Program-made: the position numbers and the translations under genes
Shown here: positions 7,810 through 62,999 of the stretch, one piece after another
Numbering within the stretch: position 1 is the stretch's first letter
How the letters are laid out: every line of letters starts with the position of its first letter
The notes under the pieces: generated by a model
What the model saw: the letters and a program-made list of their open reading frames with translations, nothing else
The model's database searches: none
Told to the model about the DNA's origin: nothing
Origin: Bryum argenteum
Lineage: Eukaryota > Streptophyta > Bryopsida > Bryales > Bryaceae
DNA: 64,000 nt
Assembly: GCA_037043015.1 (NCBI GenBank)
Contig: CM073321.1
Location: forward strand, 4,407,001-4,471,000
Direction: 5' to 3'

Positions 7810-8524
7810 TTATCCCCGCGTCGGGGATAATTATACCAAGATCTGAATTGACTATGGAGATGTGGTTAGAGGGCATTGGGATATCTACGATTAAATTATG
7901 GATTTATCCTTGGAGCGGGGATAATCTCTTGGCGCTCTATGTAGACTTGAAGGGAAACGGCAGAATTATCCCCGGGCCGGGGATAATTTTTACTTCAATG
8001 TTTTGTTATCTACGACGGCGCGTGGATAATCTCTGTATATTCTATAAGGACCTGAGGCGAAACGGCAGAATCATCCCAAGGTCGTGGATAATTGTTAATC
8101 TAATGGATAATTTGTCTGATTTTGTTCAAGATTTATCCCGGGTCTGCGATAATCTACTATATTTATGTGTTAAAACAGGGCGAGATGACGGAATTATCCC
8201 TGGACCGGAGATAATTTCTACTTTTCTGGTTGATATTTAGGGTTATGTTCAGGATTTATGCCAAGGTCGGGGATAATCCGCTGATGTTGGGTGGAAAACC
8301 TTGATGAAAAATCGCAAAATTATCCTCGGGCCGGGGATAATTGTTTGCTTTAGAACTTATTTTATGGTTTTTTCAGGAGTTATCCCCGACCTGGGGATAA
8401 TTTATAGTCTTTTTTTTTATAGCATGGGCGAGTTACAATATTATCCCCGGGCCGGGGATAATTCCTTCTTACATAAGCCAAATACTCGGCTATGCGCAAG
8501 ATTTATCCTCAACCCATGGATAAC
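7810..8524. repeat. P1 palindrome array, about 12 units of 61-62 bp, 5' of copy A
   Basis: Units start at 7810, 7904, 7966, 8006, 8071, 8133, 8194, 8256, 8320, 8380, 8441 and 8503. From 8071 onward the spacing is 60-64 bp. The best copies (7966, 8441) are perfect TTATCCCCGG inverted repeats; others carry paired or single changes. DNA between palindromes is only loosely similar. The array begins 85 bp upstream of the copy A start and runs away from it. Confidence 0.88.
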
Positions 8525-8529
8525 ATTGG

Positions 8530-9000
8530 TAGCCAATGATGAAAATTCGTGCATTGGCACACTGGCAATCATGTGAAACAAAGTATTATCTACATACGGC
8601 GTAGATTTAGAATTCAACAGCAATCCCGATCAATTCGAATGAGATATTCAATCGAAACAAAGCAAATAGAATTCGGAGCTCACCCGAAAGAATGCGAAGT
8701 GAAGGCTGGATGAGCTATGACAAACTAAAACCCAATTCGATGATGATTTTAGTTAAGTACTGGACTTGCGACGCCTTCCAAGCAGATACCTTGAACATCA
8801 AAAGAAAATACAATTGATTCAGCTAAATCCCTAGTACGAATTCAGATACCATGTGCTTCAAACATCAAACCTGAAAAATGCTAAAGCGCAACCTCATAAA
8901 CAGTAATTCCACTCTACTCAAGCGAAGTACAGAAATAAAAAACTAGAAAAGCTCTTGTTTAAACTGCAGTAAGCGCAAAACCTGAAATGCAAAAGCAGAA
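8530..9000. other. Intergenic DNA without recognisable content
   Basis: No coding stretch, palindrome or RNA gene recognised here. Confidence 0.5.
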
Positions 9001-9660
9001 GCGAAAACTAGGAATTGTGATAAAAGCTGTAACAATCAAAACATGGAAAGGAAAGCGCCAAACCTGAATTGCAAAAGGAGAAGCTTTGAGGTAGCGGCAA
9101 ATCGAAAGATGGTGAAGTGCACCGAAGTGTGCGACGAGTGCAACAGACAGGGAAAACTCGAAGTCCGGTGAAACAGGGAAACGCGAACCGCAAAAACAGC
9201 GAAACAAGGAAATGCGAGCTGCAGGAACTCCAAAACAGGGAACACGAGCTACAGAAACGACAGGGATCGCAAAGGCGCAGCTAACAAGGAAACGCGAACG
9301 CCAAGAGAAGCTGGAAACGCATAGGCGGAGGGAAGCAGAAAACGCGAAGGCAAGAAAACGCGGCGCTGCGAAACGGATGCAACTCCGAACTGCAAAAGTT
9401 GCTGGTGCAGCTCCGAACTCCGACCTGCAAGAGCTGCGAAAACGAAGCGAAGCTGCGAGCTGCGACACGGGCAAGCCGCAAACTCCAGCGCAAAGTAGCG
9501 AGCTGCACTTAGAACTGCAAGAGCTGCGGTTGCAAAAGCGCGAAGTGCGGGAGGAACGCGAAGTGCGGGTGGAACGCGAAGTGCGGAAGGAAGCGGAGCT
9601 GCGGAACACAAAAAGAAAAAGTGAAGAGCAGAATGACTGCGGAAAGGGGTCACCATGACC
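9000..9660. repeat. Purine-rich, GC-rich low-complexity block
   Basis: Irregular tandem repeats of gcgaagtgcggga and gagctgcgaactgc-like words. The plus strand is open at 9212-9658 with an Arg/Glu-rich, coiled-coil-like product, and the minus strand is open too. Composition explains both, so no gene is called. Confidence 0.6.
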
Positions 9661-9679
9661 CCCTCCCATCATTACACTC

Positions 9680-9757
9680 ATGGCCATGCCCATGATGGTG
9701 TGTATGGGAATGGTCATGTACATAACCATGCCTATGCACATGATTATGGGCATGGCA
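9680..9757. repeat. CATG-rich imperfect foldback
   Basis: Imperfect inverted repeat of about 37 bp arms centred on atgtacat, left arm beginning GCCATGCCCATGATG and right arm ending ATTATGGGCATGGC, followed by a T9 run. It is related to the foldback at 28723-28826. Confidence 0.75.
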
Positions 9758-9759
9758 AG

Positions 9760-10680
9760 TTTTTTTTTGAAAAATTATATTAGGATACTTTCTATCATTT
9801 TTCATCTAAGTTCGCTTTTATCTAATTTACACGTACACTAATTTCCACGTACACTAATTTGCAAGTACACTTATATAGGTATTCTTTGTTTAGATTCTAG
9901 TTCTCTAAATTACTTTTAGGAAGTTTGTGTTCAAGGTTTAGTATTCTAAGTCTAATTTTCTAAATTGAGCTTTTAGTTTTCTTCTAAGTATTCCACGTAC
10001 TTAGTTTATTAGAAAGAATAGTACTCGAAGAAAGTTATTTTCACTTTGATAAATAGTCTTGTTGACATATGAATACAAAGTTTGTTATTCTAAACTTGAT
10101 TCTTAATTTGAAATATATTCTTCAACTAAAATTCCTTACACATGTATTTTGAATGCCACTTTCATTGTCCAACTTTGTTACTAATATGAGTACCGGCCTT
10201 AGGTTTAACTTTGGTAAGAACTGGCTAGTTTATTAAGCCTATTTGTACCCAAGTGACAAATTTCCATAAGTAAAATTGTTGATAAAGATACTTAAATCGC
10301 AATCCTAGGTTTCCATACTTCTTAGACTTATTGTACGTGGTTAGGTCCCAAACCCTAGTCTACACTCGAGGAAATGCACAAGAGGGAATTAGAGCCTAGG
10401 AATCGAATTTGGAGTCTTGATGCTTCCTAGATTGCGTGAATTTAAGTATAATTTCTCCAAAGATATCACAAAGTTTCATCATTCTCAATTTCAAACAAAA
10501 ATAAATGACCCTAAATCCTAAACCCTAAACCTTAAGCAATAATTTCCAAGGGCATAATATGAGTATAAGGTCTAAATACAATGTTTAAAATTAGTACTAC
10601 TTGTATTTGAAATGGAAAACCACTATTTCTTCATGTCAAGGACGCGGAAAGACACAAACTAACAAGAACTAAGAAGAAAT
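9760..10680. other. AT-rich spacer with a short telomere-like run
   Basis: No gene recognised. At about 10509-10535 the sequence CCCTAAATCCTAAACCCTAA is a degenerate plant telomere-type run, also a possible telobox. Confidence 0.5.
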
Positions 10681-10794
10681 TGAATTACCAGAACGAGAAC
10701 ACAAACAACACCATGAAATGTGAGAACTACAAGAGATGTGTTATCGAGACTGGAGAACCCCTCTGCCTCGACTCCCATATATACTACCATATAC

Positions 10795-10900
10795 GAAGCT
10801 TCTTCCGAGACTTCTTAAGCGACTTCCGAGACTTCTTAAGCGACTTTCGATACTTCTCAAGCGCCTTTCGAGACACTTCGAGACGCTTCTCAATCTTTTA
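10795..10900. repeat. Short tandem repeat, 21-22 bp unit
   Basis: About five diverged copies of cgagacttcttaagcgactt in tandem. Confidence 0.75.
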
Positions 10901-11094
10901 GAAGTTTCTAATGTATGTCCGTGACACTTTACATGTAATTTTTTCTAATATATTAGTAAAATATATTGCTATTGGACTAGTGGAAATTTTGAAAACATAA
11001 GGAATAAAACATGGTTTAATGAAATCTTAATTAACATTCAAATTTAGGCCTTATCTTACAAACATCTATAATTGAAATAAGTTTTCATGAAGTT

Positions 11095-12960
11095 AACATA
11101 TGGGCATGTAATTGCACTTTTTTCATTCTATGTTAAAATAACACAATAATTGCCTAATTTGTATTCAAATTTATCTTATAAACAATTGTAGCTGAATTAA
11201 GATTTTATTGATTTTACTTCTATACTCCTCTATATATATATACTTATTATTTATTTGTCTATTTATTTATTTATTTCTATAATTGAAATTTTTTATACAT
11301 CTATATATATTTTATAAATATATCTATCTATATAAATATAAATATATATGTATATATATATTTATTTATTTATTTACTTATTTATTCATATATAGTTTTT
11401 ACTTGTATGGGCATTTAATTGCGCTTTTTCATTCTATAATAAGGTAGCACAATAAATGCTTAATTTGTATGTAAATTTATCTCATAAACAATTGTTATTG
11501 AGTTAAGATATTATGTATTTAACATCTATACCTGTCTCGATATATTTCTTTATTCATACTCGTATCTATATCTCTATCTATATATGTATATTAATAATTT
11601 ATTTATTCCTATATATCTGATCTTGTACGAGCATGTAATTACGCTTATTTTATTCTATATTAAGATAGGACAATAAATGCTTAATTTGTTTTCAACTTTA
11701 TCTTAGAATTAATATAATTGAATTAAGATTTGATGAATTTAACCCTTACACGCCCACGATGTCGAAAAAAGACATTGTGGATGTACATCCAGAAACTTTG
11801 AAGAGCCATATCTTCTTCATCTGAGGTCCGTTTTGGATGAAATCACTTGGATTCTAAATCAAGTCTAGTTTGTGTTGTAAAATTTGCAAGTCCATACAAT
11901 AAAGTATGAATTAATGGAATGCACTTTAGTGAAGACAACTCTTGTTTTTGGGATTCCAAGCATGGGGCATGTATTATCACTGCAAGCCAATTATGTGAAA
12001 TTAAAAATAGTTTTTCATGATTTTTTTTTCCATGGTCATGATCTTAAGGTGATTCTTAACAACTTTGTAGTGAGAAGTTTTTTGATCCAAATGATTTTGC
12101 TATTGGATCTGCAATGATGTTTTGTCAACAGAAAAAGTGAGAAAATGAATGATATTTGAGGAGCTATATCTCCCTCATCCACCGGTGGATTTCAACTTAA
12201 TTAGAGTCTAGTCTAAGTGGTAGAAACCTTAATAAGATCAAAGATGTTTTGAAGATAAGGCATGAAATTGAATGCAAAGGGTCTAGTTTTGGACTATTTT
12301 TCCTTTGTAAAATGTTCAGTAGTTTTTACCATTGCATGGCTTTTATTTGAGCCAAGAAATTTTTTTGATGAATTTTTGTTGGGTAAAGGACTTATTAAGA
12401 TAAAGGAGAGCATCTTTCTAGTTGGTGATTTTTTCATTGCAATAGGTATATTGGTAGCATTTCCACCTCAAAGTGAAAATGATGAAATTTTGCAGTTTGT
12501 TTTTGATATTGATATGTTATGATCTCCCAATCTATAAGGCCTCATGACTCAAATTTTGGTCGACATGATCTTCGATAAGTCTATTACAAGTTTGTACAGT
12601 TAAGATCTTAATAGCTTCTCTTGATTTTCATCTATAACGATTTCTATGGAAATGCGCTTTTCTGCTAATAATAGGCTCGGGCGTTTAGGGGTTAACTTCT
12701 ATACTAGTATCTATGTGTATATACATACTTATTTATCTATTCATATACATTTGTACCTGATATATATATCTATATATACATAAATTTACTTATTTATTTA
12801 TTCATATATACATATTTAAACTCATATGGGCATATTATTGCGCTTTCTTTGTTCTATATTAAGATAGCACAATAAATGCTCAATATGTATTCAAATTTAT
12901 CTTATAATCAATTATAATTGAGTTAAGATATTATATATTTAATATCTATACTCGTATATA
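11095..12960. repeat. AT-rich satellite, diverged units of roughly 220-300 bp
   Basis: A landmark block recurs at about 11100, 11405, 11632 and 12828: gggcatgtaattgcgctttt, then cacaataaatgcttaattt, then caattgtaattgagttaag. Units are separated by TATATA/TATTTA runs. The piggyBac-like element 11743-12691 is inserted in the third unit. Confidence 0.8.
11743..12691. mobile_element. piggyBac-like non-autonomous element, TTAA target
   Basis: Ends are CCCTTACACGCCC (left) and the inverse of CCCCTAAACGCCCGAG (right), each flanked directly by TTAA (11739-11742 and 12692-12695). The surrounding satellite gives a paralogous empty site: other units read TTTAACATCTATA where this one is split. The 949 bp interior has two short ORFs (11884-12117, 12262-12522) with no transposase motif, so it is probably a non-autonomous copy. 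Confidence 0.78.
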
Positions 12961-13885
12961 TTGATGTATATTTATATTTATTCATATGCCTATTTATTTA
13001 TTCTTTGTTAGTATTCTATGTTTTTTTAAGGTATTTTTCATCAGTAGTGTACCATATATTTGATTCCATTGATTGTGCGATATTAAGTAAAGACTTGTCA
13101 ATGGAATGTTCTAATTATTCTAGTTACTCTCATTTTGTAATTATTATATTTTATTCAATAAATATATGAATACGAATTTATATTTTTTTTCCACTACTCA
13201 TAGTTTGTATAAAATGTTAAATTTTATGGAGAAAAATTTAAAACACAATTGTTTGTAAAAATAAAAAATCCATATTTATGAATGCGTTTCCCTCCAGTAT
13301 GAGTTTCTGGCAGAAACATCTTTGCCACCGAATATTTTCAAAATTCGGTTGTAAAAAGTGGAATCCTATTTAGGAGCCTAATGAAGACAAAATTCATGTT
13401 GCGACAAAATGTGTCGACTTTTTGCACGATATTGTGCGTTGAAGATACTCTCACGATGTAGCCGTTGAGGTCGGGCTGGGGTTGCTAACTCAGTCTCTCA
13501 ATCTTTCCTTTCATTTTTTCTCACTCTCGTCCGTGCTCTCAAGGTGCGCTTAGTTTGATATTTCGTTCCGGTGTGTGTGTTCAAAGTTGCGTGTTTTGTA
13601 GATGGAGTTTGAGTTGGTGCTGACTACGTCCGATGTAGTTTCTCATTTAGAAGTTTCAGTATTGTAGAAGAGGCGCACGATGTATTAGTTTGATAATGTT
13701 TCAAGTTATGACAATTGCTTGTCATGTATTCTTCGACTTGTGTACTAGCTACTGATTGTTAAGTGTGGTTTCTTCAGTTGCGAGCTCTAATTTTTCTTTC
13801 AGAATCTGCAATTCACAGGTGAGCGTCGTTCGCAAATTGAATGCAAGGCATGATTCCTCAGTGTTTCAGCACTTACTATTAATAG
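12960..13885. other. Intergenic spacer upstream of D1
   Basis: No coding region recognised. Composition changes from AT-rich to mixed at about 13300. Confidence 0.45.
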
Positions 13886-13892
13886 AATGCAC

Positions 13893-14663
13893 GTTATCTC
13901 CAGGCTAGGGATAACTTTTAGTGTCTCTGGGGATTATGTCCTGGAATCTGTGCTCCCATGAGTATCCACGCCCTGGGATAATTTCGCACCTTATACGTTA
14001 CTGTACATTCTCCCCGGGTCGGGGATAATAATTTTTTTGTGGACAGTTGCACAGCTATTCCCCGGTCCAGGGATAAATGCCTTCACAAAACGTACTTATT
14101 ATTATCCTGAGTATGGGAAATCTGAGGTTCTGGCAGCAGTTTAATAATTATGCTGGGGCCGGGGATAATTTCCTACTATATTCTACTAAACGTGATTGCG
14201 GGCCGAAGATATTATTTGTCTGCACCGTCATGGGAACATTTATCCCCGGTCCACGGATAAATCCCTCTACAGCGCTTAATAATTATTAATTCGAGTATGG
14301 GGATATTATGCCTAGGTCGGGGATAATATCCTACTCTATTCTACTAAATGTCATCCCCAAGCCGAAGATATAAGTTTTCGCACCGTCATGGGAACAATTA
14401 TCCTCCGTCCGGGGATACAATCTGTTTACACCATACTGTTAGTGATCCTGGCGTCGAGGACCATTCTCCTCTTCTCCTTGATGTTCTCGTCGGGCCGGAC
14501 ATACTATGTTCGTCTCAGAGATAGAAGTAAGAGACTTTTGCATCGCAAGTAAATAGTTCTACCAGAATACTGTCTACGCCCTACGGTTGACATCGTTGTT
14601 GCTAAGGAAGTAGTCATCTTTCCTTCTCTAAGGATAGTCTGTTATCCACGGGCCGGGGATAAC
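13893..14663. repeat. P1 palindrome cluster 5' of DDE-like gene D1
   Basis: About ten P1 copies, mostly degenerate: near 13893, 13962, 14009, 14055, 14149, 14239, 14306, 14398 and 14642. The last, TTATCCACGGGCCGGGGATAA, lies about 100 bp before the D1 start. Spacing is less regular than in the 7810-8524 array. Confidence 0.8.
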
Positions 14664-14760
14664 TGTGGCGCAACTTTTACCTTAGATTTCTAGTTTGATC
14701 ATCTCGTATACTATTAATCGAGCACTAAGTTATCTTCTCAATCCTCTTCCTTTTTGTAGG

Positions 14761-17574
14761 ATGGAGACTTTCGTTGTCAACGGTGTCGATTTCCGTCCAC
14801 CAGTTCTACCTGACGGAGTTGCACTGTGAGAGGGTTTCAACCGTTCATCATGGGTGTCGAAACGAGTCACTCTTCTAAATGACGCCAGTATCGACGTTGC
14901 AAAAGCTGTCTGTCAATCCGTTGCCTCTAGCGTTGTCCCGGAGGCTGGTGGTCGGCCTCTCGGATCTGAATTTGTCTGCGTGCAGATATCGGAGTCATTA
15001 GTAGAAGCAGAGGTTTCTTATGGTTGGAGCTACTCTTTGCGTGCATGGCCTATCAAGCATGTCCTTCTCAACGGAGCAAGTCTCTACGACCACGACCAAC
15101 GCGCCATCTTCAATGCTGCTTGCAAGGTCTTCGGTCGGCCACCACGAGTTGGTCTTCGTCAGTACGAGAGCAAACGTCAAAGGCGTCTTTGGGATTCACC
15201 ACCTAAGAAGGAGTACTTTCTTACACCGGAGTCCATCAACTTTGTTGCGACAACTTATTGTTGTCCGAAGAATTGTGTGCAGCCCTATCCTCGAGGCAAA
15301 ATTAAAGATCTGAGGTTCCAGTTCTATGTTCGCGGCGATGTTTACTTCAGAAAACATTGTCTCCTTAGTGAGCATGGTCAAGTCCACGAAGCGGAGGACG
15401 GAAATGACATGATTATGTTGGAAGGTATTGAGGTGTGTTGCGTGGCGTGGTACCTGATTATGGGTGTGTCACGTGCCACATTTTTCCGGTGGAGGTATGC
15501 CCATCAAGACGGACAACAAGCAGAGGACCATAGAAACTGTGGTTCAAAGAAACCTCGTATCCAGACATTGCAAGCCACAGCATCCCTTCAAGCCATTGTG
15601 GAAAATGCTGCCAACCTCATGCCTCATTGAACAAAGACTATTGATACAGGCGAGAAGGTAGTGTCCAAATGCTTGTCCTCTTCCTTCCGTTGGAGGGACA
15701 ATTTACCACAGGTGAATGCCATCAATGCCGTCCACGGTCTTCCTCCTATATCAAATTCAGCTCTAAGTAGGATCCGGCAAGAATCATTCGAAGAGTACTA
15801 TTCCAAGCAAAAGGGTGACACATCTGCGCGATGTGGTGAATGTGACAAAATCAAACAACTACGAGCATCCAGTACTCGAGGCAGTCGCGCATGGGCTCTT
15901 CATGATGCCAATTTCAAACGTCATAATACTTCTCAAATGGTGCATAGGTTGCTCTATTATAGTAACTGTTCAGAGTCTGAGGCACGACCCGAATCGTCTT
16001 TGTGCATTATTCATGACAAAATGGATCATTCCAAGACAGCCTCTCCGCAATTTTCACACAAGAATAAAATCAACCGATTCCTTCATGAAATTGTCGGTTT
16101 CCATCACAGGCATGATTGCTCATGGACACGGAGATGTACGTTACGCACATTACGGCCTCGATATATATCCCACGGATTCTAATCATACTATCGGTTCATT
16201 TGCTCAACTGCTAAGAGATTTGGAATCTCCTCCGAAGTGCTCTTCCAAGCAGTTGTTTGCTGGTGGTAGAAGTAGCCCTCTCTCTGAGGCTGTTTTGGAT
16301 GGGGCGGACATGTGCTTGGATTCGCTTGGTCTTCTCCCAGAGGCTCCAATCCCGGGAAAGACTCTTCCTCCGGTGCTACACATGCAGCTTGATAATGCTT
16401 GCGGGGATAATAAGAATCGGTTTGTTTTTGCATTCTTTTCACTGCTCGTGTACAAGGGCGTTTTTAGAGAGATTTACTTGAACTTCCTTCTCGTGGGTCA
16501 CTCATGAAGATATTGATGCTCTTTTTGGGCGATGGAGTAGTAAGCTCAAGACCAACAGCTACCCTACTGTTCCCCTTCTCATGAGATCCTTCATGGACAC
16601 AGAGGATAAGCTGGTTATTCCTCACTTAATTGAGGAAGTTCCGGTTTCAAGACATTCATAAAAGGTTACCTTTGCGATGGCGACGGGCGTTATTTGGGCA
16701 TACTAGTGCCCAACAATTTAGGTTTTTTGAAGATGCTTCCGGCTGGCCTTTAATGCAGTACAAAATTCTGTGTACGGATAGCGAGTGGCTTCCTCAAGAT
16801 AGTACAGGGGTTAGGTTGTGGAAAGTTATGCCAAATGGTCAACTTCAGGTTGCTCTTGGAGATCCTATGTTACTAGTTCCAAATAAAATGAAGAATATAG
16901 AAGACTTTCGAAAGGAAATTAGTCATTTTGTGAGCTTGTAAGAGTCTTTGGCGGATGCTGATCCAACAGGCGACTATCGTAGACATCATGAACAATTCAT
17001 TTATTATTGGAAAGCAGTTCGTGAGGCTTTAGATTTACCTGTCTTTGCTCCATCAACGTTCAGGGATGGATTTTGGCCTACTTCCAGGTACTCTCCAAGT
17101 GAAGAGGATTGATTTGAAGATAACGGAGAATCCCGCAAGGAATTTGCTACTGATCCTCTGTTCGTAGGACAAATACAAGATCGTCCACAGGCATCATTCG
17201 GAGTTGGACGGGATGTTTATGAGGAATACCTACTTGTGCTACGTCCGGCTGATGGAGATCTCAAGAAATTTTGGATAGCTCGTGCGTTGAGCGACCCAAA
17301 TGCTAATGTAGAGCATCCTCAAGAAATCTACATTGAGTATTGGAAGCCAGTATCTTCTAAACATGTCAATCCTGACACTTACCAAGGTTGGGTTACAAGA
17401 AGAGGTAATTCTTGGTATAAAGATATGGATTATGATCCAACTTGGGTGGCTACAACATCAATCATGGGAGCTCGGAAGCCAAGATTTTGACTTGAAACTG
17501 TTAATCCCAAGATGTGCATACCGGAGCTACAAATTTCAATTCTTAAGGACTCAATTATCGATTTCGATGAGTAG
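14761..17574 (+). pseudogene. D1: DDE-like (DUF7869-like) transposon protein, broken
   Basis: Start ATG at 14761 follows ttttgtag. The reading is METFVVNGVDFRPP, then a TGA, then an open frame 14854-15630. An HTH-like MGVSRATFFRW (15460-15495) resembles a homeodomain-like helix. A Cys pair (CGECDK) follows. The catalytic-looking core is HDKMDHSKT, MQLDNACGDNKNR and VGH-HEDIDALFGRW, the D/D/(D or E) pattern of DUF7869-type proteins that are abundant in streptophyte and animal genomes; that name is from memory and needs an HMM check. Breaks: TGA at 15628, a frameshift near 16068, a 2-bp loss near 16499, TAA at 16939, TGA near 17110 and TGA at 17488. The C-terminus aligns with D2. It precedes copy B by 700 bp on the same strand. 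Confidence 0.72.
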
Positions 17575-17579
17575 CTTTC

Positions 17580-18235
17580 ACGTTATATTAGATTATATTA
17601 GTTTCAATTGTCCATCCTTTCTCATTGCAATGTAGCCAACGCAAATTAGAGTAGTATGACATTACTTTTAAACATGATTTATCTATTTATAGCAAGATGT
17701 TTATATCCATTTCAATGTGTTTTCATGGGATTATTTCCTTCCATTGGTGCTGTGATCATTTTATTTATCTATAGATATTATGTCCTTTCGTCGGATTACT
17801 TCTTGTACGTATATTTCTTTGAAGTAATGATTTTCTTCATGCAAAATACTTTTTTGGTCCTTGAAGCTTGCAATCTATGACACGAATAATGAGATGTGAA
17901 GTAGTTTCAATATGCTTTACGTCTCAAAATAATGAATATCAAAGATCAACAAATATATTAATAAAATTTCTGGTATCGAGGGTTCATCTTACGTTCTTTT
18001 GTTGAGTTCATTGGAGTCTCATTTTCATTTTAGTCTCATTTTACTTGAAACCAGATTTAATATTTTTAACCACTGATTTAAATTGAGATTGCAAATTGTC
18101 TCAAAATACTTAATATCTCCTTAGTGTAATCGCAACTTTGGTGTAGTATTAAGTTTGAATCGAGCTAATTCAGCTGGTTATGAGACATAGTATGGTAGTT
18201 AGGATGATTTCTACACAAGTTGCACGATGTTGTCT
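17580..18235. other. Spacer between D1 and copy B
   Basis: AT-rich, with no coding feature recognised. Half-palindromes CGAGCTAATTCAGCTGG appear near 18160. Confidence 0.4.
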
Positions 18236-18237
18236 TG

Positions 18238-18260
18238 TTTAGCTCGAGTCAAGCTAATTT
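18238..18260. repeat. P2-like palindrome immediately 5' of copy B
   Basis: TTTAGCTCGAGTCAAGCTAA, ending about 20 bp before the copy B start at 18281. Confidence 0.65.
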
Positions 18261-19779
18261 ACCCCATGTTCGCTCCACAGATGACTTCAAACACTCAAGC
18301 TCTGGAGGAATATCTAGAGCAAGTCCCGGTTGATTCTCGAGTTCCCCAGCTTGCTGAACTGGCTGCGGGGACCATCCTCTAGTGGACATTGTGGACAACA
18401 AAGGAGCACTCAATCGTGTCATGGTCTATTATGCCGAAGGAGAATTCGCCATTCTTCATGTCCTACTAGCAATCCGGTTTGCAAGCTACATATCATCCAT
18501 TATGCATGGACGCGCATATCTACTGTTGCCTACGAGAATGTGTATCTCCTTTTTAAACTTGAGGCCTGCGATGGCATCAACTATGTCTTCACAATCGTTT
18601 TGCCACTAAACGAAGTTTGATACAATCACAAGCTCATCCAATAACACCTGATTTCAAAGGCGAGACTAGCTCTACTAAGCCATATTTTTGGCCGGATCTT
18701 GGACGTCTCCTCTCCAAAGAGCTTTGCCAGATCCTTCCAGTGCTACTCCACAAACATCTAGAAGGCCCTTGCTGATTACAAGGCTACCATAGGGAAGGGC
18801 AAGAAGTCGGTTTGGAGGGGAGGACCCCTTGCACAACAGTCGAGATTGTAGTCAGGGACTGCTTGATTGGGTCTCGCGACACCGGATGCAGGACCGAGAG
18901 ACCAGGAGAGGAAGTGCCCAAGCCCCAACTCCACAACTTCTGGCTCCAAGAAATCTAAAAGCGCCACTGGTGGTTGCGCTCTATCATTCATTGATCCTAC
19001 CGTGAAGGCAGCTGGGTCTGAGAAAGAAATCAGTGATGATGTAGCCAACAAGACACTTGCAACGTACTGGGAGAGGTGCGAAGACTGTTACGCCGACGCG
19101 ACAATATTGACCTCATTGAATTCTCATCAAGTACGTTTGTCGTGCGTGCGCTCGAGATTTTTTGGATAAAGCACTATAAGAACATCCTGACAAACTGTAT
19201 CAATGTCAGTTCCAGGTCGACCATCGTCATTATGCCCCTAATTTATTAGCCATTGGCGGAATGGAACGGGGATACTCCTGCTTCAACTTGCAAGTTCTGG
19301 ATCATGGATAGGCAGCACCATATTTATGCTGCAAAGAAATTGATTTGCGAAAACAAAATAGACGTGAAGAAAATTGCTGCCCTTAGAACCTGGAAGGCGC
19401 ATGTCGTTTGGCACAGGGACCCCAAGGTGATCATGGACGTGTCAGCCATGACCAACAAGACGAACAATGTTGGGACTTTCACTCCTTCTTGGGCGAAAAA
19501 TAATATGGGCGCTTGGAGTGTGTGGAAGGCGTGTGGCTACTTGGTAAAGATGAAGATGCAAAACCGGAAGGAGTCAAATAAACACGCGAAGATGCGCAAG
19601 AGATACAACGTAAGTTGGTCTAGCTCGTACAAGGTGACGCTTCACACAATGGCGATGCTTCTGAGAGTTCCGGGAAATAACTTCTTCAGCAACTATAGAC
19701 AGAAGAAGTGAAAAAATAAAAGCGTGGAGGAGATTTTGGAGTATGCAATGGAGTTATTCAAGAAGTTCTTGGAAGCTAA

Positions 19780-20040
19780 CCCCTAAAGGTCCTTGATACA
19801 AAATTGTTTAAATTTATCAAAAAGAACCTTCTTCTACTTCAGGTGCAAAGAAACTCAATCTAAGCATTGATTAGTAGTTCCAACCGTAGGATCTTGAAGT
19901 TAACTTGACCCTTTTCTCGAATGTCAAATTTGAAACGTTAATTTTTCTCCAATTTTGAGATTATAATGGTCAAAGTTGGCTGAATTTTCTTCCTGCAAAA
20001 ATTCCAAAAAGCAATCTCTGCTCTCATGGACCTTTAGGGG
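19780..20040. mobile_element. 261-bp piggyBac-like MITE inside copy B
   Basis: Perfect 13-bp terminal inverted repeats CCCCTAAAGGTCC, flanked by CTAA (19776-19779) and TTAA (20041-20044). With the flanking TTAA it shares TTAACCCCTAAA with one end of the 11743-12691 element. It interrupts the coding exon after EILEYAMELFKKFLEAN. Confidence 0.82.
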
Positions 20041-20729
20041 TTAAGGGGCAATTCAAAATACGGCCTGGAAATCTATTATGTTGCGAGTTTGACTTTGGGA
20101 CATTTGAATTCATGGGTTGGAATGAGTACCATCAATGGAACACGTTGCGTCGTTGGCATCATAGACCTCCGGTTCGTCCCTGGATCCGGGAGTACACCCG
20201 ATGACACCAGCAGCCCCTTCTTCAAAAAGTTTCTTGATAAATACCGGGAATGGTGAATGACCCCAATCATGATTGCTTGGATGTATGGCTTGGGATCACT
20301 GAGAGCGTTGCTCGGAATACCCAAGCGATGGCGTATGTAGCGACGCACATGAAGGACGATTTTGCCATGAAAACATCCAAGTACGTGCCTTGCAGCAACG
20401 AGCAATTCAACGACATCGCCAAGGAGAAGGTCTAAGAGAAGCACCAAGTTTCGCACCTGTTTCTTGTGATAAAGGCAGCCACGCGTTTAATTTCTTCCAG
20501 ACCATTCTGGACACGAATAAGGCACCAAACCTGCCCCTCTATACGAGTCCTGCAATGTACAATGAGCACTCCCTGCACCTTCATTAGAACGAACTTTGCC
20601 TCGAGTTCTGCTGCCTAGTCCTCAAGAAGTTTGCATCCCCAGGCCACAGAATTTTGTCAATTTTGGCTAGTCCTAAGCCCATGCTCACCAGAATTGTAAG
20701 TTCTTTGCATCCCATTATCTATTGTGTCA

Positions 20730-20826: not shown

Positions 20827-20944
20827 TAGTTTTACATTGTCCAATCTCTCACACGCTACCATTTTTGTTTGCAAAGATTTGTGGCCTTGATACCTACACT
20901 GTCTCAGATAAGGGCGATCAGGAAGGTTTAACCCCCTATTTGTT

Positions 20945-21375
20945 ATATTTGGAACATTTTCATCTCCCAAATTAAAACAAAACAACGGATGGAGCAAAAA
21001 TCAACATTTAGAAGAGTTTCACCGTAGGCATATGTACTCTAAATCTACTAATTTCCATTATATTTGGAGATGATATGAGACCTCTTGAATCTTAGAAAAT
21101 ATGTTTATCTTAAAGAAAGTTTCCAACCATACATATATTTGATACGATATATGTCAAGATTAACATACCAACAAAAGATAATTATCTTTCAATTGATAAT
21201 AATGACGGAGTCAACTTAAACAATCTTCTTATACAAAATAAATATATTGAATATGGATAGTAAATCGTACAAATATATAATACTCTATATACTAAATATC
21301 AAAGTAATATATATATGTCAATACCATGTTTAAGTACTATCACACCTACTTCCATAATAAATACTATATACTAGA
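20945..21375. other. AT-rich spacer
   Basis: Nothing recognised; between the 3' ends of convergent copy B and D2. Confidence 0.45.
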
Positions 21376-21378
21376 AGA

Positions 21379-24091
21379 CTACTCTTGAGAAGATGAAGCA
21401 AGCTCCCGTAAAGAAGCCTTGATGATTTCGACCTGCTTCTTGGGTATTGTAATAATTGCGTCTATACCTTCACTGCTTTCCTCGTCAGAATGCATAATTC
21501 TTGATTTCCAAGCAGTGAAAATAGCATCTGTAGGTTGCGACGATACATCTACACCTTTCTCAACAGTCCAACGAAGCTTTCTATTTGTATCCCAATCTGT
21601 GTAATGCTTCAGAATTTCTTTGAAGCGTGACATTGGATGGAAGAATTGGATATCGTCCGTATTCGGTAGGTCTGGGTTTGAATTTCGATCAGACATTGCT
21701 TGCCCGAGCCAGAAGGGCCGGCCATTGGTGCCGCATGGACGTAGTGCAACAAAATAACCCTTATAAAGGTCATGTCCAACTCGAAATGAAAGAGCAGGAC
21801 GATCACGTCTCTGGCCAACAAAATGCTCATCGTCGTCGTACTCTTCGCGCACATTCCCTTCTAAAGTAAATTCATCTTCTATAGCATGTGCAAGTCAAGT
21901 TGACGGCCAAAAACCATGTTGTAACGGTAATGGTTCCTCCAAACTTGACGGGATCCCATGTTGCGACGATGCAAGTGCATCCATGGGTATACAAAGAGCA
22001 TCTTTAACGCCGCTCCAGTAATATGAGAGAAGCTCGTACAATCTCCGCGATTCAATTGACTTACGTGACAATCGTTCCCAATGATCAACAAAGCCTGAAA
22101 TCCCTTTGACCACCTAAGGCAAATGGCGCATCTCTTTTGGACGTATAGCATCCGGTTCACCACGTGGCCATAATGATGTGCCTTGAGAATCCTCCTTCCA
22201 CAATTTAATACCAGCATTATCACCTCTAGGAAGCCATTCCTCATAGTGACAAAAAATCTTGTACTTCATTACAGGGCATCCACTTGGATCCATGTAAAAC
22301 TTGAATTGATGCACCTTTGTATGCCCCACCAATGCTTCATCGCCGTCTAACATCCACTCTTTATTGAATTTCTTGAAGTCCGGAACCTCTTGAACGAGGT
22401 GTGGAATAACTGGAAGTTTCTCTGTCCTCATAAAAGATTTCATGAGAAGAGGGATGGTAGGATAAATCCTCCTTTCCCAACGCCATGCTCCAACGCCCAA
22501 ATAACGCATCTATGTCATCATGAGTGTGACCGACGAGGATCCATACACACCTCGTAAAAGAGCAGTATACAGTGGATGCGATAGGGGCTCTGTAAAGAAC
22601 TCTCTATATGAGGATTTAGGTGCACCTTCCAGATCCCGCAGAAGTTTTGCAAACAAGCCAACCGTATAATTGGCATCATGTGAGTGAACATCAAGTCCAT
22701 AATGAGCGTATCGCTCGTCTACATGACCATGAGCAAGAATTCCAGTAACTGCAAGAGGTAACTTCATGAGTCCGTCTAAGTTCTTCACCTTATGGGACAA
22801 GGCAAGTGATGTTGTCTTAGAGTGGTCCATCTTGTCATGCATAATGGTCAAAACATCTTGAGGCGACTCTTTAAACCTAAAGCGGTTGAGGTAGTATAGG
22901 TCTCTGTGCGCATATGCGGAATCTAAGTACACATTCAACTTCTTCGACCATATAAGAGATGATTGTATCTAAGGAAGAGTGAGTTTCATCAATGATTGTA
23001 ACTCATCACACTTAGAGCAACGCTCGAAATTGTCCCCGGCCCGATCTTTTGGCATAGTATTCTGGATAGCTGAGGCGGCGAATCTTACTAAGGTTTGAAG
23101 TTGACACCGGCGGAAGCCCACACTCTTCAAGGTGATGATCAAGAAGAGGAATCTAGTCCTTCCACTTAAAACTTGAAAGAAGTACCTTGGCAACGACCTT
23201 CTCCCCTGATGGAAGGCTCCGGGACTTGTGAGGCATGTGATTGGCAGGTCTATCAAGTATTGCCCCTAAGACGGCAGAAGCAACAATCGTATGCCTCCTA
23301 GGCTTTCGCAAGCCCGTGTTCTCGTGTAACTGGGCCTCATAACCATCAGCTGCATTCTTGGCGTTGCGATAAAATGTACTCTTGCTCACGCCCATGATTT
23401 TCATCCACGCAATTGGACAAACATTGATACCCTCTAGAGTGAGTACATTTCGCCTTTCAGCATTTCTGTGGAACTACCTATGGACATCGAGTTTGACGTG
23501 ATTCTTGAACTGCACAGTTGTCTTATCGTACATGCGACACCTGAGAACCTTAATCTTCTCCTTTGGGTATAGTTCAACACAGTTGTGCCTACAGCACGTA
23601 TTATATGCGACCGCATTGATTGACTCCGCTGTCATCAGGAAATGGGCTTTGCGCGAAACTGGAGTAGACTCATTCCTTGAGGAATTATCATACGATCGAG
23701 TTCGAGATGACCCTTGCCGCCGACTACGTTCCCGGACCCATCTGTTGTAAACATCTTGCTGACTATAGTCAAAAAGATTAACGTCGTCTAGGAGGACTTG
23801 TTGGATGGGCCACGACTTGAAGCAGTAAATCTAGTTGTCAGGATCCTCGACCGCAACAAACAAAGTTGAAACTTGCACCACAACTCGGGAATCACCGAGT
23901 AGGCCATTACAATTAGGTGAAGCGCCAGACCGTAGGTTTCGGAGTAAACCCTCAGCGATTTTGAGTCCTTTGGAATCAAGCATTGCAACAGTCGTCCGTG
24001 TCCAGAGCCGTGGAGGAACAACTTAGGCAGCGAGTAAACCAGGATTCAAAGGTGCATCAACGAAATTTTCATCGTCTGAAGAAAAATCCAT
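21379..24091 (-). pseudogene. D2: DDE-like (DUF7869-like) transposon protein, internally deleted
   Basis: Start ATG 24091 reads MDFSSDDENFVDAPLNPGLL, then a stop. Later segments align with D1: WPIQQVLLDDVNLFD, NTCCRHNCVELYPKEKIK, IMGVSKSTFYRN (helix-turn-helix-like, about 23404-23365), MHDKMDHSKT, HGHVDERYAHYGLD, VGHTHDDIDALFGRW (about 22542-22498) and a C-terminus ending LASSSQE at 21379. Between GVYGS and LVGHTHDD the whole segment that contains LDNACGDNKNR in D1 is missing, so the presumed second catalytic acidic residue is gone. Frameshifts and stops (near 24020, 23815, 22508 and 22114) show it is dead. It is inverted relative to D1 and has a P2 array upstream. Confidence 0.72.
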
Positions 24092-24175
24092 CCTGTAATA
24101 TATCTTTACAAGGTTAAGAACTATTTGAACGCAAACATGGTGACAACTGCAGGACAATATGAGAAATAAATACAT

Positions 24176-24835
24176 GCAGTTTAGCTAAATTGACTAAGAG
24201 AATACATTCTACAGTTTAGCTCAAATCGAGCTAAACTGCATTATGTATTCGATCAATTAGTTTAGCTCGACTCGAGCTAAACTGTCTTACGGACAGCGCC
24301 TTGCAGTAAGGCTGGACTCGAACAGAAGTGGAAGTATAGTTTCGCGCTTTGGATTAGCTTAGCACCAGCTAAACAGATTCACCAGATACATACTACACTT
24401 TAGCTCGACTCCAGCTAAACTGTCCGACCGGACACATAACTGCAGTTTAGCTCGAGTCGAGCTAAACTGCAGAAACATACATTCCATACAGTTTAGATCG
24501 ACTCGAGCTAAACTGCAAAAACTTGCATGCCATACAGTTTAGCTCGACTCGAGCTAAACTGTAGAAACATACTTTGCATATAGTTTAGCTCGAGTCGAGC
24601 TAAACTGCAAAATATGTATGGCATAGAGTTTAGCTCAAGTATAGCTAAACTGTATGGACGCATGTTTCTGCAGTTTAGCGCGACTCGAGCTAAACTGTAT
24701 GCGATACATTTTTTGCAGTTTAGCTCGACTCGAGCTAAACTGTAGAAACCTACATTGCATACAGTTTAGCTCGAGTCGAACAAAACTGCAAAAAATGTAT
24801 CGCATACAGTTTAGCTCGAGTCGAGCTAAACTGCA
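24176..24835. repeat. P2 palindrome array, 45-46 bp period, 5' of D2
   Basis: The core array has palindrome starts at 24443, 24489, 24535, 24581, 24626, 24671, 24716, 24762 and 24807, steps of 46,46,46,45,45,45,46,45. Each unit is CAGTTTAGCTCGA with its inverted copy; looser copies lie at 24212, 24258 and 24398. The spacers are about 18-20 bp and partly inverted copies of one another (24698-24717 is the exact reverse complement of 24787-24806). Confidence 0.92.
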
Positions 24836-24839
24836 TGAC

Positions 24840-25495
24840 AAGATAGAAGACTGGTCCCGGGAATTCCAGCGGTTTTTACGGATTCAATTAGAATTCAAAA
24901 TTCCGTTACAACCAACGCTCTCCCATTCTATCGTCACACGCAGGAATCAAAATATACTCCTGTACCAACGTACTCGTCAAATCAAAAGAATATGTCAATA
25001 ACAACGACTCCGAATGCACAAAGGTTAAGTACATGCCATTAGAATACAACCACTGAATAGAAATTTTCAACCACTACTACTCAGGAAGAGGAGAAAACTA
25101 TGAAGAATAATGAAACAATCAATCCGAGAAGCTGTGCAAAGCAAATTAACGACAAACAATCATGCACAAATGCTATCGAGAAACACGTACGCGAAGGTAG
25201 AGGTCGAGCTGAACGAAGCACGGAGAAGTCAAGTACGTCGACGGAGTTCAACACACTGAGAGATTGAGAAGAAAAGAAGCATATTGTCCTGGATGTCGGA
25301 GGACATTGCGTAGCGCAATGCCGTTTTCGCGCTATCCCAGAAATAGGAAATGGGAGGGAATTGACGTTTGGATAATTGAAAATGGGCGGGAACTGTAGTC
25401 TCGACAGATGAAAATGGGCGCAAACTGAAGTGTCAACTGTTAATAATAGGCGGGAACAAAAGGACCGACTTTTGAAAATTGGCGAGATCGGGGTT
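24840..25495. other. Spacer with repeated ggcgggaac motifs
   Basis: No gene recognised. From 25340 to 25490 a word like aaatgggcgggaactg recurs about four times; GGCGGGAAC at 25385 and 25449 resembles the reverse of an E2F site without matching it fully. Confidence 0.4.
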
Positions 25496-25533
25496 ATAGG
25501 GTTTAGGGTTTAGGGTTTAGGGTGTAGGGTTTA
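25496..25533 (+). repeat. Interstitial telomere-like repeat
   Basis: Four TTTAGGG-type units in a row with one variant (GTGTAGGG). Plant-type telomere sequence; also typical of telobox promoter elements. Confidence 0.8.
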
Positions 25534-28500: not shown

Positions 28501-28700
28501 CTAAGAATTTAGAGTACTTTAGAGTACTAAATTTAGTCCCAATTTAGTCACAAAGTTCCATTAAAACCCTAGACAATTACTTAGTCAAAATTTGGACAAA
28601 ACTTGGACATAAATATAGTCAGAACGTAGTCAGAACTTAGCCAAGAATTAGTTAAAAAAATTGTAAGCATACTTAAAACGTAACAAACTTTTACTAATAA
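25534..28700. other. AT-rich DNA without genes
   Basis: Strongly AT-rich, no credible coding frame; a TTTA microsatellite at about 27940-27990 and TA runs near 25970. Short ORFs (26395-26655, 28191-28436) look like chance. Confidence 0.6.
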
Positions 28701-28722
28701 TCAGTAAAGTAAAAACGTTTTC

Positions 28723-28826
28723 CATGCCCATGATCATGTGCATGGGCATGGTCATGTACATGGCCATGTATGTATGTATGTATGACCATGTGCATGACCA
28801 TGCCCATGCACATGATCATGGGCATG
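28723..28826. repeat. CATG-rich perfect foldback (34-bp arms)
   Basis: Left arm 28723-28756 (CATGCCCATGATCATG...) is the exact reverse complement of right arm 28793-28826, with a 36-bp loop that contains TATG repeats. Related to 9680-9757. Confidence 0.88.
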
Positions 28827-29095
28827 AAAAAGTTTTTTGTAATGGGATCCCGACGTCCCACCACCGCCGCCATTTCCACGCAGGTCCCATCCCCCCCACT
28901 TACCTGCCATTGCCAGGCCCATTTCCTGCATTCTCTCCCCTTTCTCCTGCGCCTTGGCATTCCTGCTTTTGCTGCATTTTGCTTACCTCAATGTTAGCGC
29001 TGGTCCCTCGCATCTTGTGTTTTTGAGCTGTGTTGTTGTTTTGCGCGCTTTACGAGATCAGGGTTTTTGTCGTTTTTGTTGTTTTTGTTGAGAAG

Positions 29096-30665: not shown

Positions 30666-30670
30666 GGCTG

Positions 30671-41143: not shown

Positions 41144-41229
41144 TTGCCCTTTTTCCATCTGCTTCATGTTGGCTCCCATATTCTATTTCCTCCATCATAT
41201 TGTTTCCTAATTCCGCGAACTTGTATTGC

Positions 41230-43399: not shown

Positions 43400-43572
43400 T
43401 AGTTACATCTATTAGCTACAGAAGTAATTATGTACAGACTTCATAGTCATCACTCTTGTATGACATATTTTGTGAATCATGATTGATATTTACAAGCAAA
43501 TAAATGGAATATTCTTTTATTCCCATCCTATTTCTATTGTTTGTTCAGAGCGATGTCTCTTTTTACATATAT

Positions 43573-44042
43573 TCATATCATGTTTGATGCATGATCTAGT
43601 ACTTTATGCTTAACATTGATCGATATTTTAGATGATTCTCTACTTTTAAATCTCCCAAAGTCCTGCATATTGCCCAATATAACAAATATGGGATTCATGA
43701 GGATTGTGATGATCGAAAGCAAGAGTGCCATCGGAGGGCGACTCGGAAAATAGCACTCATCGTAGGGCGAGAAGTAGTGGCAGACCCCCATATGGTAAGA
43801 ACCCACTGAACCGGGTTGTAAGTGGCAATGGGGACAAGCCCATGATTGAGCTGCGTGAGCATCTCCTTCATGTCGTGCAGCGTAGCAGACACGCATAGGA
43901 AATAATTCTTTGTGGGCTTCTTCACACTTACTTTCGGGAACGTCATGAGCAGGTTTGGAGTTTCGTTGAGCACATGTTGCACTAGTTTCCGTAGGGAACA
44001 CAGGGGTGTGAGCAGTGAGCGGTGAGCGTGAATTTTTGGCAC
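43573..44042 (-). pseudogene. Unidentified coding remnant
   Basis: Minus-strand frames read PNLLMTFPKVSVKKPTKNYF, LNHGLVPIATYNPVQWVLTI and, in the next frame, YDECYFPSRPPMALLLSI, as one protein broken by a frameshift near 43780. I do not recognise the family. It lies 600 bp downstream of copy E on the same strand. Confidence 0.4.
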
Positions 44043-60117: not shown

Positions 60118-60262
60118 AGAGCGAGGGTAGAAGTTGAACAGAATGAGGGTGAGAGTGAGAGAGAGGGTGAACAGAGTGAGACCGTGAGAGTGAGCGAGGG
60201 TGAACGGAGTGAGAGTGAGCGAGGGTGATCAGAGTGAGAGTGAGCGAGGGTTGAAGTTGAAC
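60118..60262. repeat. Minisatellite, about 31-32 bp unit
   Basis: Repeats of gagagtgagcgagggtgaac with variants, about four units. Confidence 0.85.
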
Positions 60263-60434
60263 AATGAAGCAGAACTCAAGATAAGGTGGTGCATCCAAAA
60301 TGTTTGTGAGCTTTGTTCATGATTAAGGAAATCTAAAGTTACAACATTTTTTTAAAAAAGTGGGATGTTGGTTAAACCATTTTGGTAGTCTAGACACCGC
60401 AGGTTGTGACGTGGACCTTCGTGAACAAGAACTA

Positions 60435-61426
60435 CTAATTTTGTACTGGGATCCTATCCAAAATCCTTGCAAGCAGCACGCGCTTTATTTCGTTGAAGCT
60501 TAAGGTGGAGGCGGTCACGAGGTGGTCGTCTTGGAGTCGGAATCCACAAACCATGCGGAAAATGTAGCATAGGTGCTTGCAGTTATACCATCCTCCACGC
60601 CCTTTGTGGTGCAATGCCATATCTGTGAAATCAATACAAGTGCAGCTGGGGAATGATCCTATCGTGAGCTTGTACTCCGCTCCCTCTGACCCGCTGGTTG
60701 ATTTCAAATCAATGACTGCTCCGATACCTGGGCTAGGAATAAAGGTGATCCGGGCCATCTCTGTGTGTAGAAGCGTTGCCGACTCCCACGTTGCGAGCTG
60801 CTTCTCCGAGTTCTTACGAGTGACGAAACGCTTGCAGGATTTGTCGTTGCGCACCGCCATGTACTTATCTGGTTGTGTTGGGATTGGGATGCATATCACG
60901 TCGAGAGAAATATTTAAGCATATCACTGAAACAAAAGTTAAAGCACGCTTACAAGATCCATGAAGCCTTCCCATTGCCTGTGACGAAAATGCCACCGCGC
61001 CAGCCAGGACTCCATCGCTGGCAAATTTGAATTTGTAACAGCTTCACTTGACACCCACCACGACCGAATTGCAAGGTAGCGTGTCTCGGCCTCATTCATA
61101 TTGATTTCATCCTTATATTGTGTACAAATTCGCTTATGCTCATCGCGGAGCACCGGGGTTACGTATAAGTTTGTTACTCTGTGCATGCATTTTGTCCAGT
61201 GGAGTAGACACGATCTCTCCTTCTCTTTCATGGGCACAATCTTGTTTCCCGTCCCGTAAATCTCTCGAACAGCGTTCCAGTTGGCTTGAGCGCTATCACC
61301 CATGAAACCTTTGAAATTGACGTTGACGACACCATGAAGCGCCATAACTTCGTTAAGCATCCTCCAAAGGTGTGATTGTGCATGCTTAGTCTCAGATTGC
61401 ATGTCGCAAATGGCCATTGTCATCAC
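60435..61426 (-). pseudogene. MULE-like transposase C-terminal half with SWIM zinc finger
   Basis: Two overlapping frames. 61426-60938 reads MTMAICDMQSETKHAQSHLW, FKGFMGDSAQANWNAVREIY and RSCLLHWTKCMHRVTNLYVT, resembling the last catalytic-Asp region of MULE/MuDR-related transposases (D-S-A-Q-A-x-W). 60995-60435 continues after a frameshift or intron with YMAVRNDKSCKRFVTRKNSE and a SWIM finger, SCTCIDF then YNCKHLCYIF (C-x-C...C-x-H, about 60650-60560). The upstream catalytic part is absent, so this is a fragment or the 3' exons. Palindromes ACACCGGTGT lie 30-120 bp upstream. Confidence 0.6.
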
Positions 61427-61455
61427 CTTGGGGTGTAGACGGTATGACCTGCCCT

Positions 61456-61548
61456 ATAACACCGGTGTAGCACTGTTCACTATTGATGTGTTGGTGTGAT
61501 CATGATCCCTATAACACCAGTGCAGCCCTCTCTAATAACACCGGTGTA
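61456..61548. repeat. P4 palindromes 5' of the MULE-like gene
   Basis: ATAACACCGGTGTA at 61456-61469 and 61535-61548, with a variant ATAACACCAGTGCA at 61511-61524. Confidence 0.75.
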
Positions 61549-62027
61549 TCTTCGTGCAATGCAAGTGTGATAGTGTGACCCTAAGCCATGAACCTTAAAA
61601 ACCCCATGGTTTGTCAAAAACTTCATCCGTCAATATCGCATCCATAGGGTGTCCAATCGCGGCGAATCAAACCATTCCGGAATCCACAAGTCCCGGGCAA
61701 CACCGTGGACGGACCCTCGTTAGCAAATTCCACCTCATTCTAGAGTCGTTTCTTTGGAGTTGCACATGTGGACGCATAGAGGATCTCTTGATTACACAAA
61801 AAAATCTCAACCACGCTTTGGGGTACAGCGCAAGGATTCCGAAACCACCTCAAGTTTGCAATTTGGACGCAAGACGGATGAGCCATCTGCGGATGAAGTT
61901 TGGAAATCCAAAACTTCATCCGTCTATAACTCCTCCGTTTTAAGTCTGATCACGATATACTTTACCGTTTTGGAATAGGGTCAACATAGGCTACAGCGTG
62001 ATTGCCTTGGATTTACGGCCCTTACCC

Positions 62028-62999
62028 CATCCGGTGCCGGACCATAGTATAGGCGGGTAGCCTCTGTCACTTACTTTGGCCGCATCACATAAACCGCATC
62101 ACAAAATAGTGAGTTGAATCGATTGAAGCCAATTCTCTGCCACTTTGACATGGTAACCAAGGCCTCCGAGATGAGCCCTAAACACTGCATCGCGTACCCG
62201 ATGGGATAAAATGGATGTTTTGCGCACTGAAGCAGCGGCACTAAAGCAATGCCCGTTACGACACCCAATGGCACCTAAGACCCCATCCGGTACCCGTCGG
62301 GGGCAAGAAGAAGAATCTTGCATCTCCTCGATGATATTCTGCCACGCTTGTCATGCCTACTATTTGGCAACTTTGACCTTATCGGGTAACCGGTGGAGAC
62401 TCTCGATTGATTTTTTCTTCATGGCCAGGACAAGATCATCAATGCAAACGAGGTAAGTTTGCCTAATACTTTCGCTAAATCTTCAAATATGATAACGAAA
62501 ACCTTTGTTGAATGTGCTTGTATTTATAAATGTCAAAATTAAATGCATAACTATTGATCTGTATTTCCCATCGGATACCCAATAGGGTATTTCTATTCAG
62601 TTCGTTGCGATTCTGAAAATAATCTGAAGTTTTTCCAGGTGAATTTGCTATCAAGGAAGGGGTCTAGCGCTTGCTGGTGTCCAAGGACCCTCACTTGCCG
62701 CAACCTAGCGCGTGGGCGCAGCTTGAGGTGGGTGAGGGCTGCGTTGCAGTCAGGTGGGCGTCGGGTGGCCGATGGGGTCCTGGGACCCGCATTCGCGCCA
62801 TCGCGGCGCCTCGACGCCAGAGGCTTGGGTTCGCCCGTCGGGGACGAGGTCGCCTCCCTAATCCATAATCGGCCATGTAGGTGGAAGTCGGGTGCCCGAT
62901 GGAGCCTTGGCGCGCTCACCTACCCCGACCGTAGCGCCGATCTGGGCCGCATCTTTACTCCCCGACGCGGCTCGCGTAGGGGGGTCGGGCGCCCGATGA
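62028..62999. repeat. P5 palindrome cluster (CATCGGG/CCCGATG) 5' of copy G
   Basis: Copies near 62028, 62188 (CATCGCGTACCCGATG), 62284, 62380, 62568 (CCATCGGATACCCAATAGGG), 62760, 62886 (GTCGGGTGCCCGATGG) and 62984 (GTCGGGCGCCCGATGA), degenerate to good. Part of the cluster lies in a GC-rich block (62640-63170) with overlapping frames on both strands and no recognised protein. Confidence 0.68.

Follow-up and report, generated by a model that had tools for sequence, protein, structure and literature searches.

Palindrome arrays paired with ParB-methyltransferase-like genes in giant DNA transposons of Bryum argenteum

A transposon protein that joins a ParB domain to a methyltransferase has been described in Ectocarpus, where a 21.5-kb Sola1 element carries, opposite its transposase gene, a gene for a 1104-aa ParB-plus-methyltransferase protein; the available text of that paper points to comparable proteins in green and red algae and proposes that the protein binds and modifies its own element (PMC12477816). 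Here we describe a 64,000-bp stretch of the genome of Bryum argenteum (hereafter the window, C1:4407001-4471000, on the 44-Mb contig C1 of a 259-Mb genome of 25 contigs). It contains two adjacent, decayed giant DNA transposons, elements A and C, each with a broken gene for a ParB-plus-methyltransferase (MTase)-like protein that we call PBMT. Because the Ectocarpus protein has been reported, the PBMT protein type is already known. Elements A and C resemble Sola1, as far as the available text describes it, in being DNA transposons of about 20 kb that encode, on the strand opposite the transposase, a protein of about 1000 aa with ParB-like and N4/N6 MTase-like parts. They are set apart from that description by clade-linked palindrome arrays at both genes, with seven clades in this single genome, by altered nucleotide-binding and methyltransferase motifs and by a NIF-like phosphatase gene; the new part relative to the known Sola1 genes is the paired candidate operator arrays.

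Target site duplications of 4 bp are characteristic of Sola1, and the 4-bp duplications of elements A and C fit Sola. Duplications of the same length are given for Sola2 in the available part of its description (PMC3627910). Pfam names the transposase of elements A and C only as DUF7869 (PF25273), a family on which our literature search found no papers. In the open-licence literature we found no report of target sites of ParB-methyltransferase transposon proteins, and only the Ectocarpus paper appeared relevant to ParB in connection with Sola or as a transposon accessory.

Bacterial ParB, Noc and KorB bind palindromic sites. According to the accessible text of one study, phages carry fusions of ParB to N6_N4 methyltransferases, and the GxxR arginine of the ParB-CTPase fold is needed for nucleotide binding (PMC12704722). 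PBMT resembles these proteins, within what that text covers, in its ParB-CTPase fold, its palindromic candidate sites and its fusion to a putative MTase-like domain; unlike bacterial ParB, it has the GxxR arginine replaced in nearly all copies read, its site arrays lie at transposon genes and no segregation context was seen. A further comparison is offered by VANC of the VANDAL (MULE) transposons of Arabidopsis, whose short targets are described, in the portion available, as tandem in non-coding parts and differing between related families (PMC5735166). Here too a transposon-encoded factor is accompanied by family-specific candidate motifs, tandem in non-coding parts. Unlike VANC, whose motifs are given there as 8-9 nt, the sites are 23-bp palindromes and PBMT has a ParB fold and a putative MTase-like fold, and an anti-silencing role would be assigned to it by analogy. 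Lanisha, a eukaryotic DNA transposon lineage that received its name recently, is placed in the CMCT group, which has mostly CA..TG ends according to the text available (PMC12730594); elements A and C differ from that group in beginning AAGGGG or AACCCC.

Two giant transposons on one plan

Elements A and C (Table 1) share one plan in opposite orientations: the DUF7869 transposase gene and the PBMT gene are divergent, a NIF-like phosphatase gene lies downstream of PBMT, and arrays of a 23-bp palindrome (11+1+11), a different one in each element, stand before both divergent genes and in the PBMT introns. A scan of the window for palindromes with 10-nt arms and at most one mismatch returned 62 merged palindromes, against 9, 10 and 10 unmerged ones in three Markov shuffles. 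The initial annotation had placed inverted repeats upstream of PBMT A and PBMT C, and both sets were confirmed, the former as a ten-copy array and the latter as 13 sites. In the array before PBMT A (consensus ATTATCCCCGGnCCGGGGATAAT), seven of the nine spacings are 60-64 bp and core identity is 0.79 against 0.38 and 0.32 in the flanks; the consensus before PBMT C is CAGTTTAGCTCGAnTCGAGCTAAACTG. Further A-type sites occur at 2614-3092, 4525 and 6186, and a single C-type palindrome (41119-41141) lies ahead of the NIF-like open reading frame (ORF) of element C. The tail ORF of PBMT A (2392-3642, minus strand) contains some of the sites at 2614-3092, and in it the A-type palindrome is translated into repeats like DYPRAGDN. 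These further sites, the C-type palindromes in the first intron and after exon 2 of PBMT C, the palindromes at the transposase genes (the 12-site C-type array and the six A-type sites of Table 1) and the bounded transposons themselves had not been listed in the first reading of the window.

Genome DNA searches with pieces of the window gave common end points for the copies; copy counts are lower bounds because scoring in the search is limited to the best candidates. The right end of element A (query 3523-3526, window 18122-18125) is common to at least 24 other copies, its left terminal inverted repeat (TIR), AAGGGGATATT, lies at window -1005, the terminal repeat reads AAGG(G/A)GATATT and a 4-bp duplication, AGTG, flanks both ends. 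Perfect 4-bp duplications (AAAT, GGAG, TAAA and ATGT) were found in four of five further A copies; in the fifth, C7, the left end was not located. The transposase stretch of element A is repeated in the genome at 90-96% identity with a common end, and its NIF-like ORF falls in a stretch common to other PBMT A copies. For element C, the left end (query 6330-6331) is common to at least eight other copies, and the right end falls at query 896 in 13 of the 18 other copies listed and at 891-901 in the rest; the TIRs are AACCCCCTATTTG and AATCCCATATTTG, with ends of the AACCCC type. The window copy of C has no target duplication, and the C copy at 5.51 Mb has TGGT (one of two C copies). The right end of element C (42800-43695) is nearly identical to C1:4597309-4598204, about 150 kb off, and GTTT forms both the four bases left of element C and the bases after the right end of that copy, a sign of a rearrangement between the two copies. 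A centromere or partition role for the arrays was dropped because they belong to transposons that have defined ends and target duplications.

CACTA and hAT elements have subterminal repeats bound by their transposase. The arrays of elements A and C might likewise be sites of the element's transposase, and be clade-linked since the transposase is. Each element in the window has its own transposase gene, and an array lies at most 210 bp upstream of each transposase match or ORF: the palindromes end 167 bp ahead of the ORF in element A (14830), and the array begins 210 bp upstream of the match in element C (24004). However, sites also stand in the PBMT introns and before PBMT itself, where they begin 45 bp ahead of the match in element A (7764) and where the last one ends 73 bp short of the match in element C (31589). 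Nor are they near the element ends, since no site at up to four mismatches was found in -1005 to 768 and 14664-18122 of element A or in 20930-24213 and 41142-43695 of element C. We therefore consider it unlikely that the arrays serve the transposase.

Table 1. Positions of elements A and C, their genes and palindromes, and the B remnant in the window
Feature	Position	Strand	Evidence or detail
Element A, giant DNA transposon	C1:4405995 (window -1005) to 18122		shared ends, TIR, duplication; 19,128 bp
NIF-like (HAD) phosphatase ORF, element A	1032-1784	-	PF03031, E 4.5e-10
PBMT A gene, broken	2392-7764	-	tblastn with open relative L048; N-terminal part 7764-6701, ParB-like part 6707-6252 (TAG inside), MTase-like exon 6108-4686, tail 4655-2392
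A-type palindrome array upstream of PBMT A	7807-8463		10 copies of 26-nt unit
A-type palindromes upstream of transposase gene	14007-14663		six sites, 2-4 mismatches
DUF7869 transposase-like gene, element A	14830-16507	+	PF25273, E 4.4e-25 for 15767-16507
Right TIR, element A	18105-18122		terminal comparison
PBMT B remnant (B1/B2-like), outside elements A and C	18227-20205	+	tblastn
Degraded TTTAGCTCGA-type palindrome of B	18237-18259		two more at 20729 and 20796
Element C, giant DNA transposon	20930-43695		shared ends, TIRs; 22,766 bp including later insertion
DUF7869-type transposase-like gene, element C	21379-24004	-	tblastn with A transposase ORFs, 36-52% identity
C-type palindrome array upstream of transposase gene	24214-24831		12 sites
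C-type palindrome array upstream of PBMT C	30673-31516		13 sites
PBMT C gene, broken	31589-34706	+	exon 1 with ParB-like part to about 33050; exon 2 (MTase-like) 33363-34706
C-type palindromes, first intron of PBMT C	33086-33266		palindrome scan
C-type palindromes after PBMT C exon 2	34738-34966		palindrome scan
Later insertion inside element C	34980-40086		missing from C copies compared
NIF-like phosphatase ORF, element C	41571-42245	+	PF03031, E 1.5e-13

Palindrome types across the PBMT clades

That the palindrome type follows the PBMT clade is supported across the sampled copies. The sample held 63 loci in seven ParB clades (A, 2 loci; B1, 1; B2, 1; C, 30; D, 1; E, 14; F, 14); two duplicates, L043 (of L072) and L044 (of L086), were dropped before the pairing count, and the window's own copy C (L011) was kept. 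With up to two mismatches allowed per 23-mer, the A motif was found at 27 sites in A loci, the E motif at 88 in E loci (14 of 14 loci, 13 of them with at least two sites) and the F motif at 153 in F loci (14 of 14), and none of the three occurred elsewhere. The C/D motif gave 193 sites in C, 23 in D and 7 in B2, and the B2 motif 10 in B2, 118 in C, 19 in D and 8 in F, both with none elsewhere. The half-sites are nTTATCCCCGG in A, GTTTAGCTCGA in C and D, ATTTAGCTCGA in B2, nTTATCGTCGn in E and nTTCAACTCGA in F. In a motif-free scan the loci had 0-24 palindromes each (two in L045), against 0-1.7 in shuffles.

The expectation of one private palindrome per subfamily holds for the A, E and F motifs, which are confined to their own clades, but 'private' is too strong because C, D and the distant B2 have the inner half-site TTTAGCTCGA in common. 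Similarly, the A, C and G sites had been called unrelated in sequence; this wording goes too far because the frame nTTnnnnyCGrn is common to the A, C, E and F types. The motifs of sister clades are alike, A and E both having TTATC.

Genome-wide, a C-type 21-mer occurs 5878 times and its reversed control not once. In the first 1.3 Mb of C1, with C, D and B2 grouped after their shared motif had been seen and with PBMT lists that are lower bounds, seven C/D/B2-type PBMTs are listed, each with two sites or more, and 95 of the first 100 C-type places lie no farther than 12 kb from them. None of these places is near the six A/E/F-type PBMTs, and 95 was reached in 7 of 2000 circular shifts. The anticipated clustering at matching PBMTs is thus supported for the C-type palindromes in this stretch of C1.

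Since common descent explains the pairing within a clade, these data amount to about seven independent cases and not to 63. Motif distance followed protein distance with a Mantel r of 0.35 (exact P 0.006, seven clades, an imperfect palindrome serving as the B1 motif row and the tree tool giving long-branch warnings), which suggests a weak link between the two. This link is loose because C/D and B2, with proteins at 21-22% identity, have the inner ten bases in common.

Several arrays are regularly spaced (about 46, 53 or 62 bp), as is expected of tandem duplication, and one could imagine that they are tandem-repeat by-products, or hairpin elements with no dedicated protein, whose families were separated by drift and homogenisation. 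However, the cores of nine arrays are 0.79-0.92 identical, with pairing of 0.79-0.95, whereas adjacent 14-mers are 0.26-0.50 identical, and the palindromes stay alike as the flanks diverge, even in the irregularly spaced arrays of D and F. Moreover, the A, C, D, B2, E and F types have all retained two-fold symmetry, the families differ through matched changes on both arms in many copies, and one motif stands at two distant genes of the same element. An origin as by-products is on this evidence very improbable. It also seems unlikely that the arrays are host transcription-factor sites, because the motif differs by family.

The PBMT protein and its proposed role

The fold test placed the N-terminal ParB domain of PBMT in the ParB-CTPase fold. 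The ParB exon has 13 homologues, all unnamed, in a large protein database, in which the MTase part has none at E 0.001; a profile search of solved structures gave a best E of 0.11, to neither a ParB nor an MTase. In 20 Pfam scans of 19 different ORFs, DUF7869 and NIF were the sole families above the cut-offs. The best Foldseek matches for the model of a 996-aa ORF, which probably retains an intron, were of the METTL3 and MTA1 types at E 0.01 or worse, below significance.

The catalytic motif of beta-class and MT-A70-like DNA methyltransferases is [DNS]PP[YFW], which includes DPPW. PBMT might be an active DNA methyltransferase steered to its own palindromes, which it would mark with N6-methyladenine or N4-methylcytosine, in line with the published suggestion for the related Sola1 gene. 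Against this, D-L/F/V-R stands at the DPPW position in eight of eight well-aligned rows (clades A, B1, C and E; the ninth row, L081, is misaligned at this place and clade D is outside the rows), the position being given by an aspartate set on MTA1 D209 from the alignment start with no gap assumed. DxR was found in B2 and F loci too, by a pattern search that could not find DPPY. Pfam gave no methyltransferase match up to E 5 in the scanned PBMT exons, and the structure models are of low confidence (predicted local distance difference test, pLDDT, 55.7 and 53.1). Altogether, an active methyltransferase appears doubtful.

We propose instead, as the probable reading, that PBMT is a self-specific regulator of its own transposon family, similar to VANC, and is predicted to bind the palindromes. 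PBMT dimers would bind their own family's palindromes at both genes, and bound PBMT would control the expression of its own element, most likely, by analogy, keeping the element open against host silencing. The protein and its palindrome would diverge together, and each copy would therefore serve its own family and not others. We speculate, more tentatively, that a phage-type ParB-methyltransferase may have turned into a catalytically dead, nucleotide-independent reader of operator arrays that shields only its own family, with its specificity re-set several times within one genome through matched changes of protein and arrays; such a protein would be an independent counterpart of VANC.

Several observations weigh against a self-specific regulator that is matched to its own palindrome. 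At the GxxR arginine of the ParB fold, 53 of the 63 loci fitted the QH pattern used (the ten others are uninformative), and 52 of these 53 carry S, H, C, N or T instead. The A sites before the transposase gene of element A carry 2-4 mismatches, a single site that matches the B2 motif with at most two mismatches occurs in each of eight of the 14 F loci, the 30-bp array of B1 consists of imperfect, asymmetric TTTAGGTAGATGCCTGCTAAA, and some E loci are site-poor in the motif-free scan (none in L084, two each in L081 and L082). The inner ten bases common to C/D and B2, in spite of their distant proteins, count here as well. In addition, inheritance within one element yields much of the pairing for free, and clades A, B1, B2 and D are each represented by no more than two loci. 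Finally, the initial annotation had paired CATCGGG/CCCGATG palindromes with a further PBMT copy, G, near the end of the window; neither such a palindrome family nor a PBMT exon was found there, and G is not a case of paired palindrome and PBMT. CATCGGG is absent from 55001-68500, where only CCCGATG words and one imperfect 16-mer (62188-62203) were seen, and 43696-68500 holds no ParB or PBMT exon at E 1e-4 except a scrap at 43884-43997. The suggestion that protein and site co-diversify in specificity thus retains the agreement of type with clade, the clustering of C-type sites at C/D/B2-type PBMTs in the tested stretch and the ParB-CTPase fold, and is weakened by the shared half-site, the failure of G and the replaced arginine.

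Other features of the window and wider significance

The B remnant lies next to element A, its exon match beginning 105 bp right of that element's end. Looser palindromes had been attributed to this copy, and three degraded sites of the TTTAGCTC type (18237, 20729 and 20796, with 8, 9 and 8 of 11 pairs) are present, although none is within two mismatches of any family 23-mer.

The stretch marked in Table 1 as inserted into element C is taken to be a later insertion because the compared C copies skip those bases, their matches to the query (window 23600-43500) breaking off at about 11.3 kb and resuming at 16,488; it holds a long AATACTTC repeat array (38706-39306). Six copies of a telomere-like GGGTTTA repeat lie at 25491-25533 within element C, and AT-rich blocks are found between the arrays of both elements (10001-14000, GC 29-32%, and 26001-28000, GC 21%). 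Beyond the two elements, ORFs at 60435-61453 on the minus strand presumably resemble a MULE/FAR1-type transposase with a SWIM zinc finger; a Pfam scan of 60435-61043 gave no match. Scanning the window for tRNA and Rfam families gave zero matches. In all six PBMT protein searches, most of the copies listed were on C1, far above its share of the genome (44 of 259 Mb), and C1 may be a transposon-rich chromosome, for example a sex chromosome.

The candidate binding sites at both divergent genes of the two mapped elements, together with five inner motifs over seven clades, fill the missing half of the system known from Ectocarpus. Since candidate sites have been found, the guess that such proteins bind their own element is directly testable. 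The clades also provide a natural set of matched protein/site pairs, useful for decoding specificity, and these elements may be a second example of sequence-specific self-recognition by transposons.

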